Part shown: piece after piece, positions 42,582-50,091 of the stretch
How the letters are laid out: every line of letters starts with the position of its first letter
Numbering within the stretch: position 1 is the first letter of the stretch
Assembly (NCBI GenBank): GCA_031274925.1
Contig: JAISPL010000029.1
Location: forward strand, 1 to 51,744
Source: Syntrophobacterales bacterium
GTDB taxonomy: Bacteria > Desulfobacterota > Syntrophorhabdia > Syntrophorhabdales > Syntrophorhabdaceae
Direction: 5' to 3'
Length of the DNA: 51,744 bases
Notes under the pieces: generated by a model
Seen by the model: the letters and a program-made list of their open reading frames with translations, nothing else
What the model was told of the DNA's origin: nothing
The model's database searches: none
Program-made: the position numbers and the translations under genes

Positions 42582-44102
42582 TTACATTTCTACAAAATAT
42601 TTCAGCCGTTTCGCTCTGCTATGGTGCTTCAGTTTTCTTAGCGCCTTAGCCTCGATCTGACGAATTCGCTCCCTCGTAACATCGAAAACCTCTCCCACCT
42701 CCTCAAGGGTGTGGTCATACTTTTCTCCAATACCAAAACGCATTCTCACCACCTTTTCTTCTCTGGGAGTCAGGGTTGCCAGCGTTTTGTCCAATTGGTT
42801 TGCCAGGTCATCACATATGGCATATTCCTGCGGGCTCGGCGTGCTTCTATCTTCTATAAAGTCGGCAAGATGGGTATCATCCTCGTCGCCGACAGGGGTT
42901 TCAAGGGAGATAGGTTCTTTGGTGATCTTAAGAACTTTCATCACTCTATCAAGAGAAAATCCTATCTTCCGGGCAATCTCATCCGGCTTGGGTTCTCTCC
43001 CCAATTCCTGGACCAGGTTCCGGGAAACCCTGATTATCTTATTGATAGTTTCAATCATATGGACAGGTATCCGTATTGTTCTTGCCTGATCGGCTATGGC
43101 CCGTGTGATTGATTGCCTGATCCACCAGGTAGCGTAGGTGCTGAATCTATAACCTCTTTTGTATTCAAATCTATCGACTGCTTTCATTAAGCCGATGTTT
43201 CCTTCCTGGACAAGATCAAGAAGGGAGAGCCCGCGGTTCATATATCTCTTCGCAATACTCACTACGAGGCGAAGATTGGCTTTGACCAACTCATTCTTGG
43301 CAAACGCGCATCCATCTTCAGTCTTCTCCACTCTCTTCAGATATTCTCTGAGTTCTTCTGGGTCCATTCCCATTTCTGCTTGCACCATCTCAAGCTTTCT
43401 TCGGATCATCTTCGTGCCAGTTTGTTTCTGCAGATCGTTTTCAAGGATTTCGATCTTGTCTACATAGCGCCTCATCCGTTGCACTATTCTTTCGATAATC
43501 TTCCTACCGAGGTTTATGTCGGCAATAATAGTATGGATCTCCGCAGAAACGGCCGCTTTATTGGTCGCCTGAGCAGATTTATACCGATCATTGATCTCCT
43601 TCAATCTATCCAGTAGGATTATTACCCGATTTCGCTGAAATTCTACTTCTGAATCACTCTCTTCTTCATCGACTTCCATCGTAATATCCTGGATGCTCAT
43701 CTTCCCTGATTTTAGAGAAGGTAAGGCGGCAAGCAATTCTCTGACCGTCCCCGGAAAAGAAAGGATGATCTGCTTGATTTCTTCTTTCGCCTGCTCCATT
43801 TTGACGGCTATCTCTTTTTCTCCTTCTTTTGCAAGGAGCGTCATACCGGCCATTTCTCTAATGTAATGCCGGATGGGATTTGTTAAGTTGTCTTCTATTG
43901 CCCCTTCAAGGTTTTCCTCCATGACACAGTGGTTGTCACCCGGTTCAACAATGCCTGTGTCATTCTCCGTTGCTTCCATATCGAAAAGCTCAATCTCATC
44001 AAACATGCTTTCCGGCTTATCTTTGTCCGACATAGGAATAAAGAAATCTCCGTCTTTCAGGCTTCTATCATAAGAAAAAAAACCTCTGGTCTTTTCAGGC
44101 AT
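42582..44102 (-). CDS. rpoD: RNA polymerase primary sigma factor (sigma-70, RpoD)
   Basis: RpoD directs RNA polymerase to housekeeping promoters. The 506-residue protein has region 1.2 ([10 protein letters not shown]), a shortish non-conserved region, region 2 ([33 protein letters not shown]), region 3 and region 4 ([18 protein letters not shown] and [17 protein letters not shown]). The longest frame starts 6 codons earlier within dnaG and lacks a ribosome site; the chosen ATG follows GCGGGGGAA. It comes just after dnaG, the classical dnaG-rpoD order. Confidence 0.98.
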
Positions 44103-44112
44103 GGTTCCCCCG

Positions 44113-45834
44113 CTATACAAAATGTGATTTTATAAATGCCAATACCTGTTTTTTTTGCTGGAGAAGTTCCATAACTTTTTTATCGTTACCATTCCTTTCA
44201 GCTTCCGACAATCTTTCGGTTATCCGCTCCGCCTCTTCTTTCATGTATTTTTTCTCTACATGTTTAAGATAGTCGGACAGGATTCTCTTTGATTCCGTCT
44301 CATCGCATTCGGCCACATCAAGAGCCGACTGAACTACGAAATCTCTCAAATTGGTATTGTCTAGCAATCCGATAAAGCTGTTGATCTCCAACTGTTTTTT
44401 TTCCTCAAAATATTCAAACATTCTTTTCAAAACTTCCTTTATATCATCATTCTTTACGTGTTTTATCACCTCCCTACCGTTCATTGCATGGATTAACGAC
44501 GGATTGTTTATCAGGACCCCTACCACCCTTTTCTCAATAATATTCGTCGTATCCTTTCTCGTAGGCTTTGAAACTTGCCCCGTCGTGGTCGTTCCCTTAA
44601 AACTGTCGAAAAAGTGCTCCTCTTCTACACCGGTCAGTTCCGAGAGCCTTTGTATATAAAGCCTTTTCTTGATCCCATCCCGTATTGTCTCAACGTGAGG
44701 TGTTACCGTCTTTATAAAGGTCAGTTTGCCTTCAAGCTTATCGAGCTTGCATCTTGCCATATAATAGTCAAAGAAATAATCAAGAATCGGTTTTTTGCAC
44801 TCTGAAAGTGTGTCCAAACCCCCCGTTCCTTTTTCACGAACAAAACTGTCAGGATCATGCCCGTCTGGAAGCACGATCATACTCCCGTTAATATCCATTT
44901 CCGAAAGGATCCCTATGAGCCTCAAGGCACTCTTTACTCCCGCCTCATCTCCGTCAAGCATGAGGGTTATATTTTCAGTGTAGTTTCGGAGCTTAGAGAG
45001 CTGTCCTTCGGTAATTGATGTTCCAAGAGTGGAGACCACATTTTTAATGCCGTTCAAATAAAGCGCTATAAGATCAAAGTAGCCTTCCACAATAAAAACT
45101 TCATTCTTTTCCGTAATATACTTTTTTGCCTTATCTATTCCAAAGAGAGAAAAACGCTTCGAAAATATGGAAGACTCTGGTGAGTTAATATACTTGGGAA
45201 TTGCGTCCTTCTCCATGGCACGCGCCCCGAACCCGACTACTTTTCTAGTCACATCAAAGATGGGGATTACGATCCGGCCCCTGAAAATATCGTAGATATC
45301 ACCATCTTTCATTCTCAGGATTCCTGTCCCAAGAAGAATGTCATCAGGTATGTGCGCACTCTTGAGAAAACCTCTCATGCTGTACCTTTGGCGGTCGCTG
45401 AAACCAATCTTGAATTCATTAATCCCATCTTGATTGAGGCCACGATCCGAAAGGTACCGAAGCGCTGAAGGATTGCTTTTCAGGCAATCGTGATAGTGTT
45501 CCACCAGTCTTGCAAGGGCATCATGCTGTTTGGGCCTCTTTGTATTCCCTGCCTGCTCCAGTTTGATTCCGTACTGACCGGCGAGGGCTTCCAGAGCCTC
45601 CTGAAAACTAAGATTCTCATACTTTATTATGAAATTGATCGCATTGCCACCTTCGTGGCAACCAAAACAATAATATATTTGTTTATCAATACTTACAGTA
45701 AATGAAGGTGTTTTTTCTTTATGAAATGGACATAACCCTATGTAATCCTTACCTGCTTTCCTTAATTTGACATACTGAGAAACGACATCAAGAATATTAA
45801 TCTTGTCAAGGACCTGGTCGATATTGGTTCTCAT
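44113..45834 (-). CDS. dnaG: DNA primase
   Basis: DnaG makes RNA primers at the replication fork. The 573-residue protein has the N-terminal CHC2-type zinc finger (Cys35, His38, Cys56, Cys59). A Toprim catalytic domain has EGYFDLIAL (about residue 250) and [12 protein letters not shown], and a C-terminal DnaB-interaction region follows. Its start overlaps mutS2 by 4 bases, and its end lies 10 bases before the rpoD start, consistent with one macromolecular-synthesis transcript. Confidence 0.97.
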
Positions 45835-48131
45835 GGCAGTTCTACCACCGTTACGCCTGCATTTGTATTTCCCTCATCTCTCTTTAATTTTACGTAGTCT
45901 ACGCCATGAAGATGTTTTTTGACCGCTGTCATCAGTTTGCCCGTGCCAACGCCATGCAATATCCGTACTCGTGGCATGCCTTGCAGTATTGCCCTATCTA
46001 TAAATCTGTCGAGTTCTTCCATGGCCTCCTCGACTCGCATACCGATAAGATTCAACTCAGCTTCCGCTATGGGTTGAGCGGCAATCTGAACGCTTTTACC
46101 AGACAGGACTTTTCGCTCAATCGCTACTCGCTCAAGTTGCCCCATGGGCACTTTTGTCCTGATATTGCCCACCTGAATTTCACACATACCTTCTTCGTCA
46201 GTTTTCAGTACATACCCATTGGTCCCCAACGTGCGGACTCTAACATAATCGTCGACTTGAATATTCTGCGTGGCCTGCGCTGTGGCGGGCGTCTTGCCAT
46301 CTACTCTGTTTTTTAGTGTTTTAAGCCGTTCTTTGGCGGTCTTTGTCGCCATTTTCTCTTTCTTCTCAAGTTCTCTGCGTATTTCTTCTATCTCAGTTTC
46401 AACTTCACGCATGCGAGACTCACATTGATCTTCAATCTTTTTTAAGTACTTCTCCCGGTTATCCTTGAGGAGGCGGAGTCTCTTTTTAGCCTCTTCTCTA
46501 AGCCTGGCCAATTTCTTCTGTTCTTCTTCAATTTTCTTTCCCCCTAACTCAAGAGCCATGACTAGATCATTCAACATGTGCTCCTGCTTTCCCAAGTATC
46601 CGTAACTGGCCTCAATAATGCTTGCAGGCAGCTCAAGACTCTTGGCTACGCTGATCGCATTACTGTAGCCCGCGATCCCGTAAACAAGTCTATACTTTGG
46701 CTTCATTGTGTCTTTATCGGACTCTGTGGCGACATTTAGGGCAAATGGCTTCGTGTAACCATACGCTTTCAGGAGGTTAAGGTGTGTTGTAACAACCACT
46801 CTGCACCCTTTTCCTACAAATCCGTCGATGATGCTCATGGAAAGAGCCGAGGCTTCCTGTGGTTCCGTTCCTCCGCCGATTTCGTCAATGAGCACAAGTT
46901 CGTCACCTTTTGACCGGTAGAACAATTCCTTTATGGTTTGCATATGGGCTGTAAAACTTGACAGCTCCATCGAAATATCCTGTTCGTCGCCCATAACCGC
47001 GAATATGTGAGAGGCAATGGGTACGAGCGGTCGGCCTGCCGCCGGAATGAAAAGGCCGGCCTGAGCCATCACGGACAAGAGGCCGATCGTCTTAAGAGCG
47101 GCGGTTTTGCCGCCTGCATTGGGACCGCTTATTATCATTGCCTTCTTATCGCTGCCCATAATCACATCTATGGGAACCGCTCTTTCCCGCTTCGAAAGCA
47201 CAATAAAGGGATTTAGGGCTTGCTTTATCTCAAGGGACCCTCCCACGCTGATTTCTGGTCTCACACACCCAAACTCCAGACTGAAGAGGGCAAGACAATG
47301 ATAAAAGTCCAGATTCCTGAGGATGTGCATGTTGATGGCCAGATCGCCCACAGAATCTCTCACGAAATCCGTCAACTCACTGAGAACCCTCTTCTCTTCT
47401 TCCCTTTCTTCCTCTTCCAGGACATTGATGGAATTGTTTAATTCGACGCACTCAATGGGTTCTGTAAATGAGGTTTTCAATGAGTGGGAATAGTCGTGTA
47501 CAATGCCTTTCAGGGCTTCATTAAAATTAGGCTTCAGAGGGATTACATATCGGCCGTTTCTTATCGCTATATACGTATCTTGCAATACAGGGCGAACAGC
47601 TTCCCTGTCCATGATTCTTTCAAACTTTTTCTTTATTCGCTCTCTCAGACTGAAAAGATCAGACCTTATTTTTGACAGCTCATACGAGGCGGTATCTTCA
47701 ATAAATCCTTCCACGTTTATGGTTTTCATTATTCGGGAGTTCACAGTATGAAGCGGCCTCAGAGCCTCAAGCACCTCTTCCGTGTATGGCCCTCTCACAT
47801 GAGTCTTCCTAAGAAAAGAGGAGATATCATCGCATGCACTCAAGAAATGGGAAATAAGAATAAAATCTTCTGATCCCAACACGGTATTGCGGACCGAAAG
47901 CCTCTTTGATAAATCATCTATATCTGGGATGTCTGAGAGAGGGATCTTTCCGTCCCATTTGATAACTTCAAGAACTGACCCCAGTTTTTCTTGTTTTTCC
48001 ATCACCTCGCTGGGATCACTCAAGGGCAACAGTCCGCTTATCATCTCATCGGCAAAATGTGTCGACGAATAGCTTTTTAAAATGTTGAGTAATTTTATGT
48101 AATCAAGATATGATAGGGTTTTGTCAACCAT
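45831..48131 (-). CDS. mutS2: MutS2 family protein (ATPase with Smr nuclease domain)
   Basis: MutS2 acts on branched DNA and, in some bacteria, on collided ribosomes. The 766-residue protein has a MutS-like core and clamp, then the ABC-type ATPase with Walker A GPNAGGKT (Lys342) and Walker B ELVLIDEIGGGTEP. A charged coiled coil lies at about 515-605. The C-terminal Smr domain (about 690-766) has LNLIGMRVEEA and ILHGVGTGKL. The mismatch-recognition domain of MutS is absent, as usual. It sits between yqeY and dnaG. Confidence 0.96.
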   Translation of the reverse strand: MVDKTLSYLDYIKLLNILKSYSSTHFADEMISGLLPLSDPSEVMEKQEKLGSVLEVIKWDGKIPLSDIPDIDDLSKRLSVRNTVLGSEDFILISHFLSACDDISSFLRKTHVRGPYTEEVLEALRPLHTVNSRIMKTINVEGFIEDTASYELSKIRSDLFSLRERIKKKFERIMDREAVRPVLQDTYIAIRNGRYVIPLKPNFNEALKGIVHDYSHSLKTSFTEPIECVELNNSINVLEEEEREEEKRVLSELTDFVRDSVGDLAINMHILRNLDFYHCLALFSLEFGCVRPEISVGGSLEIKQALNPFIVLSKRERAVPIDVIMGSDKKAMIISGPNAGGKTAALKTIGLLSVMAQAGLFIPAAGRPLVPIASHIFAVMGDEQDISMELSSFTAHMQTIKELFYRSKGDELVLIDEIGGGTEPQEASALSMSIIDGFVGKGCRVVVTTHLNLLKAYGYTKPFALNVATESDKDTMKPKYRLVYGIAGYSNAISVAKSLELPASIIEASYGYLGKQEHMLNDLVMALELGGKKIEEEQKKLARLREEAKKRLRLLKDNREKYLKKIEDQCESRMREVETEIEEIRRELEKKEKMATKTAKERLKTLKNRVDGKTPATAQATQNIQVDDYVRVRTLGTNGYVLKTDEEGMCEIQVGNIRTKVPMGQLERVAIERKVLSGKSVQIAAQPIAEAELNLIGMRVEEAMEELDRFIDRAILQGMPRVRILHGVGTGKLMTAVKKHLHGVDYVKLKRDEGNTNAGVTVVELP

Positions 48132-48148: not shown

Positions 48149-48598
48149 TTATTTAGAAGATAGTCTTTTAAGCACCATTTCACTCAATACTTTTCCATCC
48201 ACTCTTCCGGGATACTTCCCAAGGATAGTTTTAATGATTTTCCCCATATCTTTTTTATCTTTTGCTCCAGTTTCCTCAATCGCCCATTCGATTTCCTTTG
48301 CCATTTCCTCCTCCGTCAGCTGGGAAGGAAGAAACTCTTTCAATATTTCAAGTTCTTTTTCCTCTTTTTCAACCAGATCGTTTCTTTGCCCTTTCTTAAA
48401 ATTTTCTATCGATTCAATATGTTGCTTTATGGATGTTTTGATGAGAGAGAAAAACTCGTCTTCGTTTATTTGTCCTATTTTTTCAACTTCTTTATTTTTG
48501 ATAGAGGTCAAGATCATCCGGAACAGAGACAAGCGTACATGGTCTCTTCCTTTTAAAGCCTTCTTCAGACCTTCTTCAATCATGGTTTTATATTCCAT
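48149..48598 (-). CDS. yqeY: GatB/YqeY domain-containing protein
   Basis: The 149-residue protein is the stand-alone YqeY domain, related to the tail of the GatB amidotransferase subunit and thought to bind tRNA. It has the typical alternation of charged helices: RLSLFRMILTSIKNKE, LKEFLPSQLTEEE and KIIKTILGKYPGRVDGKVLSE. The frame continues upstream to a GTG at 48682, but that part is an rpsU remnant. The chosen ATG has only a distant AAGG. It lies 17 bases upstream of mutS2. In many bacteria yqeY follows rpsU, and that fits here. Confidence 0.92.
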   Translation of the reverse strand: MEYKTMIEEGLKKALKGRDHVRLSLFRMILTSIKNKEVEKIGQINEDEFFSLIKTSIKQHIESIENFKKGQRNDLVEKEEKELEILKEFLPSQLTEEEMAKEIEWAIEETGAKDKKDMGKIIKTILGKYPGRVDGKVLSEMVLKRLSSK

Positions 48599-48695
48599 TG
48601 TTAATAAAGACCTTATTGGCTGCCCGTCTTGTTTCCTAAGTCTTGTGAGGGTACCCTTCGAAGGGCTTCCTTTCGCATACACTTACGGCAGGCAT
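48599..48695 (-). pseudogene. 5' remnant of rpsU (ribosomal protein S21)
   Basis: A strong ribosome site (AAAGGAGG) precedes an ATG at 48695. It encodes MPAVSVCERKPFEG, then stops at 48636 out of frame. Shifting frame near 48655 continues as TLTRLRKQ. Together this matches the S21 start pattern (MP-V-V-E--PFE-ALRRFKKQ). The remaining basic half of S21 is missing, and yqeY starts right after. rpsU is the classical first gene of the rpsU-dnaG-rpoD operon, so context supports it. The truncated frame may now serve as a leader peptide coupled to yqeY. Confidence 0.6.
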
Positions 48696-48801
48696 CCGTG
48701 TCCCCCTCCTTTGAGTATAAAATAAAAAAATATGAGTATTGAATTGCTCTATTTAAACGTAATTTCCTGCCGAAGTCAATAGATTTGTTAAAGGTAACTT
48801 C

Positions 48802-50091
48802 CTACAAAAACGGATTCCTGAGTACAATGGTGTTCTCACGATCAGGTCCCACCGAGACTATATCAATCCGGACATGGAGTAATTCCTCCAGTCTTTGCAG
48901 GTATTTTTTTGTATTCAAAGGCAGGGCTTCATATCTGGTTATGTGTGTTGTCGGCGTCTTCCATCCCTCAATTTCCTCGTACTGCGGTTCTGAACGCTCA
49001 TAATCGGCAACACTCAAGGGCGGAGAATTATGGAATCTTTTCCCTATCTTGTAACTGACGCATATCTTGATCGTATCAAACGAATCAAGGACGTCGAGTT
49101 TCGTGAGGCACAACCCATTTACACCATTCACCTTGAGTGCCCTTTTTACAATCACGGCGTCAAACCACCCGCATCTGCGCGGCCTGCCGGTAGTGGCCCC
49201 ATATTCACCGCCAACTTCCCTCAACTTGAGGCCTTCATCGTCTTCGAGTTCGGTAGGGAACGGTCCCTCACCTACCCTGGTAGTATATGCCTTGCAGATG
49301 CCGAGTATATAATTGAGCGCCGTGGGGGGCGTTCCTGAACCAGACGCGATACTTCCCGACACGGTATTAGATGAAGTCACATAAGGGTAAGTGCCATGGT
49401 CGATGTCGAGATACGTGCCCTGAGCCCCTTCAAAGAGTATATTCTTTCCCTGTTCTATGTTTGTGTGCAGGAAACCTGCCGTATCGGCAGCGTATTTCTT
49501 CAGAACCTTTCTGTATCCGTTGAAGGACTTTATGACCTCTCTTGCACTGAAGCCTTCATCTTTGTAATATTTTTTGATCACAAAGTTTTTAAGCTCCAAG
49601 TTCTGTTTCACTTTCTCGGAGAATACTTTTTTATCTAAAAGGTCAATCACTCTTATGCCAAGCCTGCTCATTTTGTCCTCATAAGCAGGACCGATACCTC
49701 TTCCAGTTGTTCCTATCTTTTTTCTGCCTTTTGCTTCCCTCAGGGAATCCAGTTTTTTGTGATAAGGCATGATGACATGAGCAAGATGACTTAGGAGGAG
49801 TTTCTTATCATCGCTCAGATAACCAAGGCTTTTCAATTCCTCAATTTCCTTCTCGAATACATCAGGGTCCAGGACCACGCCGTTGCCGATAACACAATAT
49901 TTTTTCTCATGGAGTATGCCAGACGGGAGGAGGTGAAGCACTACCTTCTGATCGCCTACCACAATCGTGTGTCCGGCATTGGCTCCACCTTGGAAACGCA
50001 CAACCACATCGGCGTAGTTGCTAAGCATGTCTATTATCTTGCCCTTTCCTTCGTCCCCCCACTGAATTCCCACTACTCCTACGTTAGGCAT
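48802..50091 (-). CDS. purA: Adenylosuccinate synthetase
   Basis: PurA couples IMP and aspartate with GTP to form adenylosuccinate, on the way to AMP. The 429-residue protein shows GIQWGDEGKGK with catalytic Asp13, GANAGHT with His41, GRGIGPAYEDK and the GTP-site region near TKLDVLDSF. It is full length. The longest frame has 11 more codons; the chosen ATG has GGAGAGGA upstream and the standard MPNVGVVG start. It seems to form its own unit, upstream of the rpsU remnant. Confidence 0.97.
   Translation of the reverse strand: MPNVGVVGIQWGDEGKGKIIDMLSNYADVVVRFQGGANAGHTIVVGDQKVVLHLLPSGILHEKKYCVIGNGVVLDPDVFEKEIEELKSLGYLSDDKKLLLSHLAHVIMPYHKKLDSLREAKGRKKIGTTGRGIGPAYEDKMSRLGIRVIDLLDKKVFSEKVKQNLELKNFVIKKYYKDEGFSAREVIKSFNGYRKVLKKYAADTAGFLHTNIEQGKNILFEGAQGTYLDIDHGTYPYVTSSNTVSGSIASGSGTPPTALNYILGICKAYTTRVGEGPFPTELEDDEGLKLREVGGEYGATTGRPRRCGWFDAVIVKRALKVNGVNGLCLTKLDVLDSFDTIKICVSYKIGKRFHNSPPLSVADYERSEPQYEEIEGWKTPTTHITRYEALPLNTKKYLQRLEELLHVRIDIVSVGPDRENTIVLRNPFL

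Follow-up and report, generated by a model that had tools for sequence, protein, structure and literature searches.

The window analysed here, the whole 51,744-nucleotide stretch of contig JAISPL010000029.1 from a Syntrophobacterales bacterium of the family Syntrophorhabdaceae, carries on its minus strand, in this order, purA (upstream), a stump of a gene, yqeY, mutS2, dnaG and rpoD. The names purA, mutS2, dnaG and rpoD are presumed identities based on the sequences. The stump and the operon behind it comprise these features:

48752..48779, minus strand: probable sigma-70-type promoter of the operon, TTGACT-16-TTTAAA
48702..48712, minus strand: strong Shine-Dalgarno (SD) sequence AAAGGAGGGGG of the former rpsU; relatives have GGAGGGAGGG at the same position
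48636..48695, minus strand: 19-codon frame MPAVSVCERKPFEGYPHKT, followed by a stop; the N-terminal rpsU portion, cut short by a frameshift
48622..48650 (approximate), minus strand: rpsU homology continuing in the shifted frame (TLTRLRKQ) as far as the internal deletion; this is the frame of a 177-aa ORF, and the profile alignment ends at 48622
48601..48617, minus strand: last rpsU codons (KGLY-stop in relatives), containing AAGG, the likely yqeY ribosome site
48149..48598, minus strand: yqeY, 149 aa, with its ATG at 48598
45831..48131, minus strand: mutS2, the next operon gene, homologous in relatives
44113..45834, minus strand: dnaG
42582..44120, minus strand: rpoD

The stump spans positions 48695-48601 of the minus strand. 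A strong ribosome site precedes a frameshifted N-terminal part of rpsU; a large deletion has removed interior sequence, and the final rpsU codons follow. Its 19-codon frame begins with an ATG at 48695, 3' of AAAGGAGGGGG, and closes with a TAG stop ending at 48636. From 34 genomes of the family, none of them belonging to the genus, a DNA profile was made of the rpsU region; it matched the window at 48711-48622 (minus strand) with an E-value of 8.7e-6 at a scale of 2 Mb, and the next-best match in the window had E = 6.1. The Pfam S21 protein profile gave no match to the relic even at E ≤ 10, and it is DNA similarity together with position that marks the stretch as a former rpsU. The distance from the ATG to yqeY is 97 nt in the window as opposed to 209-219 nt in relatives with an intact gene. 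Since a homologous intact gene stands at the same place in relatives and the reading frame here is destroyed by frameshift and internal deletion, the stretch is best described as a pseudogene relic of the operon-encoded S21, most likely with no rpsU function left. A sequence-only reading of this DNA had already recognised a strong ribosome site and the first part of S21 in front of yqeY-mutS2-dnaG-rpoD, in a gene both frameshifted and truncated; AAAGGAGGGGG and the DNA-profile match uphold that description, to which we add that the 3' end of the gene (48617-48601) also persists beyond the internal deletion.

The signals flanking the relic have counterparts in related genomes. A TTGACY or TTGATY element combined with a -10 element of at least 4/6 matches was found in 42 of the 44 upstream sequences compared, among them those of all three genus genomes; a strict-consensus promoter scan of the window detected none upstream of the operon. 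In relatives the rpsU stop is close to the yqeY start or overlaps it, and AAAGG or a close variant lies within the last rpsU codons, directly 5' of the yqeY start. Because this motif adjoins the yqeY start in relatives, the tail preserved in the relic is likely to be the ribosome site of yqeY. The yqeY of genome G014 (G014:C58:35395-35768) is itself split by a frameshift or stop, which may be an error or decay.

For the comparison with relatives, G000 denotes the window's genome, G001 and G002 its congeners, f1 its family and f2 the sister family. Every one of the 41 genomes checked from the order outside the genus (34 from f1, 4 from f2 and 3 from f3) has an intact rpsU immediately 5' of yqeY, a count that leaves out the f1 genomes G060 and G061, both of which have S21. 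The proposal that rpsU was lost from this operon is thereby borne out; had relatives lacked the gene at this site it would have failed, and the opposite was found. The genus itself, the first branch of the family in a yqeY-mutS2-purA tree (FastTree supports 0.95 and 0.97), was sampled by three genomes, all draft, and in each the operon rpsU is destroyed in a different way. G000 has the relic with N-terminal part and tail. G001 has a near full-length rpsU pseudogene (Pfam E = 1.4e-6) with internal stops and without a good ribosome site. In G002 a deletion joins the first rpsU codons in frame to yqeY, behind the kept rpsU ribosome site. Drafts in many contigs invite the suspicion that the damage is an assembly or sequencing error, yet an internal deletion of more than 100 nt accompanied by many substitutions, and two congeners that are also broken, each differently, make the chance of this negligible. 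The three end states show a reading frame released to decay, with transcription and some yqeY initiation retained.

Another rpsU copy in the genome, which the sequence-only reading had named as a thing to look for, was found as the intact S21 gene G000:C42. We refer to the S21 of the rpsU-yqeY-mutS2-dnaG-rpoD operon as type A and to a different S21 encoded elsewhere as type B. Each genus genome holds exactly one intact S21 (G000:C42, G001:C87 and G002:C23), clearly different in type from the operon copy; the three genomes are 97, 100 and 93% complete. G000:C42 encodes a full-length bS21 (PF01165, 61.6 bits against a cut-off of 27, positions 2-54 of 55). Over 63 codons the type-B genes of the genus differ by 24-26 nucleotides and by 0-1 amino acids (dN at most 0.007, dS 1.2-1.8), and so few amino acid differences beside so many nucleotide differences indicate strong purifying selection on type B; by comparison, yqeY is 69-72% and mutS2 65-71% identical to the window's gene. 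In the three genus genomes and G008 the type-B gene (L052, L053, L054, L055) has an apparent TTG start, unusual for a ribosomal protein and possibly regulatory; no in-frame ATG was found near the start in G000 or G002.

Both types occur together in only one (G008) of the 36 other f1 genomes, and G060 has a second S21 match of 74.9 bits at a contig end. In the sister family, a second S21 of type B accompanies type A in 4 of 4 genomes. In a tree of about 63 residues and moderate support, the type-B sequences of f2, G008 and the genus form one group (support 0.87) distinct from type A (1.00); the genus and G008 alone reach 0.52. Type B stands beside, and divergent from, one and the same small gene in G001, G002 and G008. 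This neighbour gene is present in 31 of 39 family genomes, and 27 of the 30 family loci read around it have neither type B nor any trace of it. G000 lacks the small gene but has other neighbours of type B in common with G001 and G002. The possibility that the replacement S21 came from a phage or plasmid was considered and rejected: tblastn matched 24 phage and 231 plasmid records, but no match covered 80% of the query, the phage matches were all under 60% identical, and the viral contigs held no confirmed relative.

Retention of both types in one other genus and in the sister family points to differential paralog loss as the probable course of events. The ancestor of the family and its sister family probably had two S21 genes, type A in the operon and type B elsewhere. 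The genus would then have come to rely on type B, leaving the operon rpsU free to decay, and most other genera of the family would have gone the reverse way, keeping type A and losing type B. The operon promoter would have escaped decay, as would a functional ribosome site for yqeY, presumably the AAGG within the last rpsU codons in the window and the original rpsU site in G002. We assign a probability of roughly 0.88 to this reading, in which the stump is a pseudogene relic of a two-S21 ancestor whose operon copy decayed once the genus relied on type B. Directly observed are the relic, the intact genes corresponding to it, three distinct lesions, and type B as the one intact S21 gene, strongly constrained by purifying selection; a two-copy ancestor with opposite losses is the simplest reading of these observations, at the price of several losses of type B. 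From them we infer the order of events, the replacement of type A by type B in the ribosome and the present initiation of yqeY. Horizontal acquisition of type B by the genus and by G008, instead of inheritance from a two-copy ancestor, would suit the 27 empty loci and the occurrence of S21 genes on phages and plasmids. It fits poorly with the grouping with sister-family type B, with the neighbour gene shared by G001, G002 and G008 and with the outcome of the viral and phage comparisons, and we regard it as improbable.

The stump had also been proposed to have become a short leader peptide, translation of the 19-codon frame controlling yqeY-mutS2-dnaG-rpoD. The retained strong ribosome site and the 37 nt between the stop of the frame and yqeY would allow this, but the frame has no counterpart in either G001 or G002, its codons align with S21 and nothing more, and no terminator-like hairpin was found in 48560-48860. 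A leader peptide would need a conserved frame; the 19-codon frame is not conserved, and the proposal, which was not borne out, seems very unlikely. What may survive of it is ribosome landing: the relic might be kept because initiation at the old rpsU ribosome site (AAAGGAGG) holds the mRNA open or feeds yqeY, whatever the peptide. G000 and G002 retain the strong ribosome site, which may mean residual use, in G002 it now drives yqeY directly, and the rpsU stop adjoins the yqeY start in relatives. On the other side, G001 has lost the site and three genomes are too few to show selection, and we consider such a role possible, though on balance unlikely.

A further property of the intact operon gene was noticed at its start. 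In all 41 rpsU genes of the order (L032-L051, L152-L191) a second start codon, out of frame, lies exactly 4 nt 5' of the true one, with one free base between the two; it is ATG in 40 and GTG in 1. Outside the order, ATG, GTG or TTG is found at -4 in 40 of 63 rpsU genes of the phylum (L222-L291), in 16 of 29 families, and other positions from -3 to -26 have a start codon in no more than 9 of the 63, these being related genes hand-picked among the higher-scoring matches, with counts that are not independent and 23 of the 63 without a -4 start. Among control genes a -4 start was seen in 1 of 43 yqeY, 0 of 43 mutS2 and 1 of 14 purA, and in the window in 2 of 30 SD-preceded ORF starts. The relic has lost the codon, which is still present in G001 and G002. 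The frame it opens is 10-20 codons long and variable in sequence, and a peptide varying in both respects is unlikely to be a conserved product. A mechanism in which the SD register favours the -4 start was discarded, since rpsU genes that have this codon and those that lack it do not differ in SD spacing (medians 9 and 10, p = 0.34). Scans of six genomes for anti-SD patterns found the first pattern in 0 of 6 and the second in 1 of 6 (G001, the ordinary CACCTCCT). Our guess would be that the -4 start modulates initiation of S21. More broadly, and tentatively, since we incline slightly to the contrary, the operon rpsU of Desulfobacterota may carry a control device made up of a strong SD and an out-of-frame -4 start, which would have become purposeless after the takeover by type B and be decaying with the gene. 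If functional, the -4 start codon would represent a novel means of tuning S21.

The genus would offer a clear example of how a widespread operon loses a ribosomal protein gene once a paralog has taken over, with intermediates placed on the tree: both copies, a pseudogene, a remnant and a fused start. Comparison with sister genera makes it testable whether S21 types are interchangeable and whether the type alters which mRNAs are read. In a separate search of the phylum, 24 of 247 genomes, nearly complete ones included, lacked any S21 match at E ≤ 0.001, and in several others the match was weak; S21 may be absent from the matchless genomes or very divergent in them.

Within the titles and abstract openings of open-access literature, neither this loss of rpsU nor the -4 start codon was found described. 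Related systems are known. The number of bS21 paralogs is reported to vary among close relatives, Desulfobacterota being among the groups with paralogs, which have been proposed to substitute for one another (McNutt et al. 2023, PMC9976891). The same variation among close relatives is seen here, but the present case differs from such surveys in that the losing copy is caught in mid-decay inside a conserved operon, in three end states within one genus. Francisella likewise has several S21 types in one organism, in its case three intact homologs reported all to enter ribosomes (PMC9578407), whereas this genus has one intact copy. In Flavobacterium (Bacteroidota), S21 is described as autoregulated via the exceptionally strong SD of rpsU (PMC9976891). 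A strong SD precedes rpsU in both systems, yet other genes of the present genomes also have SD sequences. A parallel to the -4 start is offered by the overlapping start codons AUGUG/GUGUG of E. coli (PMC9841429), where, as here, two start codons in different frames share one initiation site; in E. coli the offset is 2 nt and many genes are reported to be involved, whereas the offset seen here is 4 nt and is conserved in a single gene.
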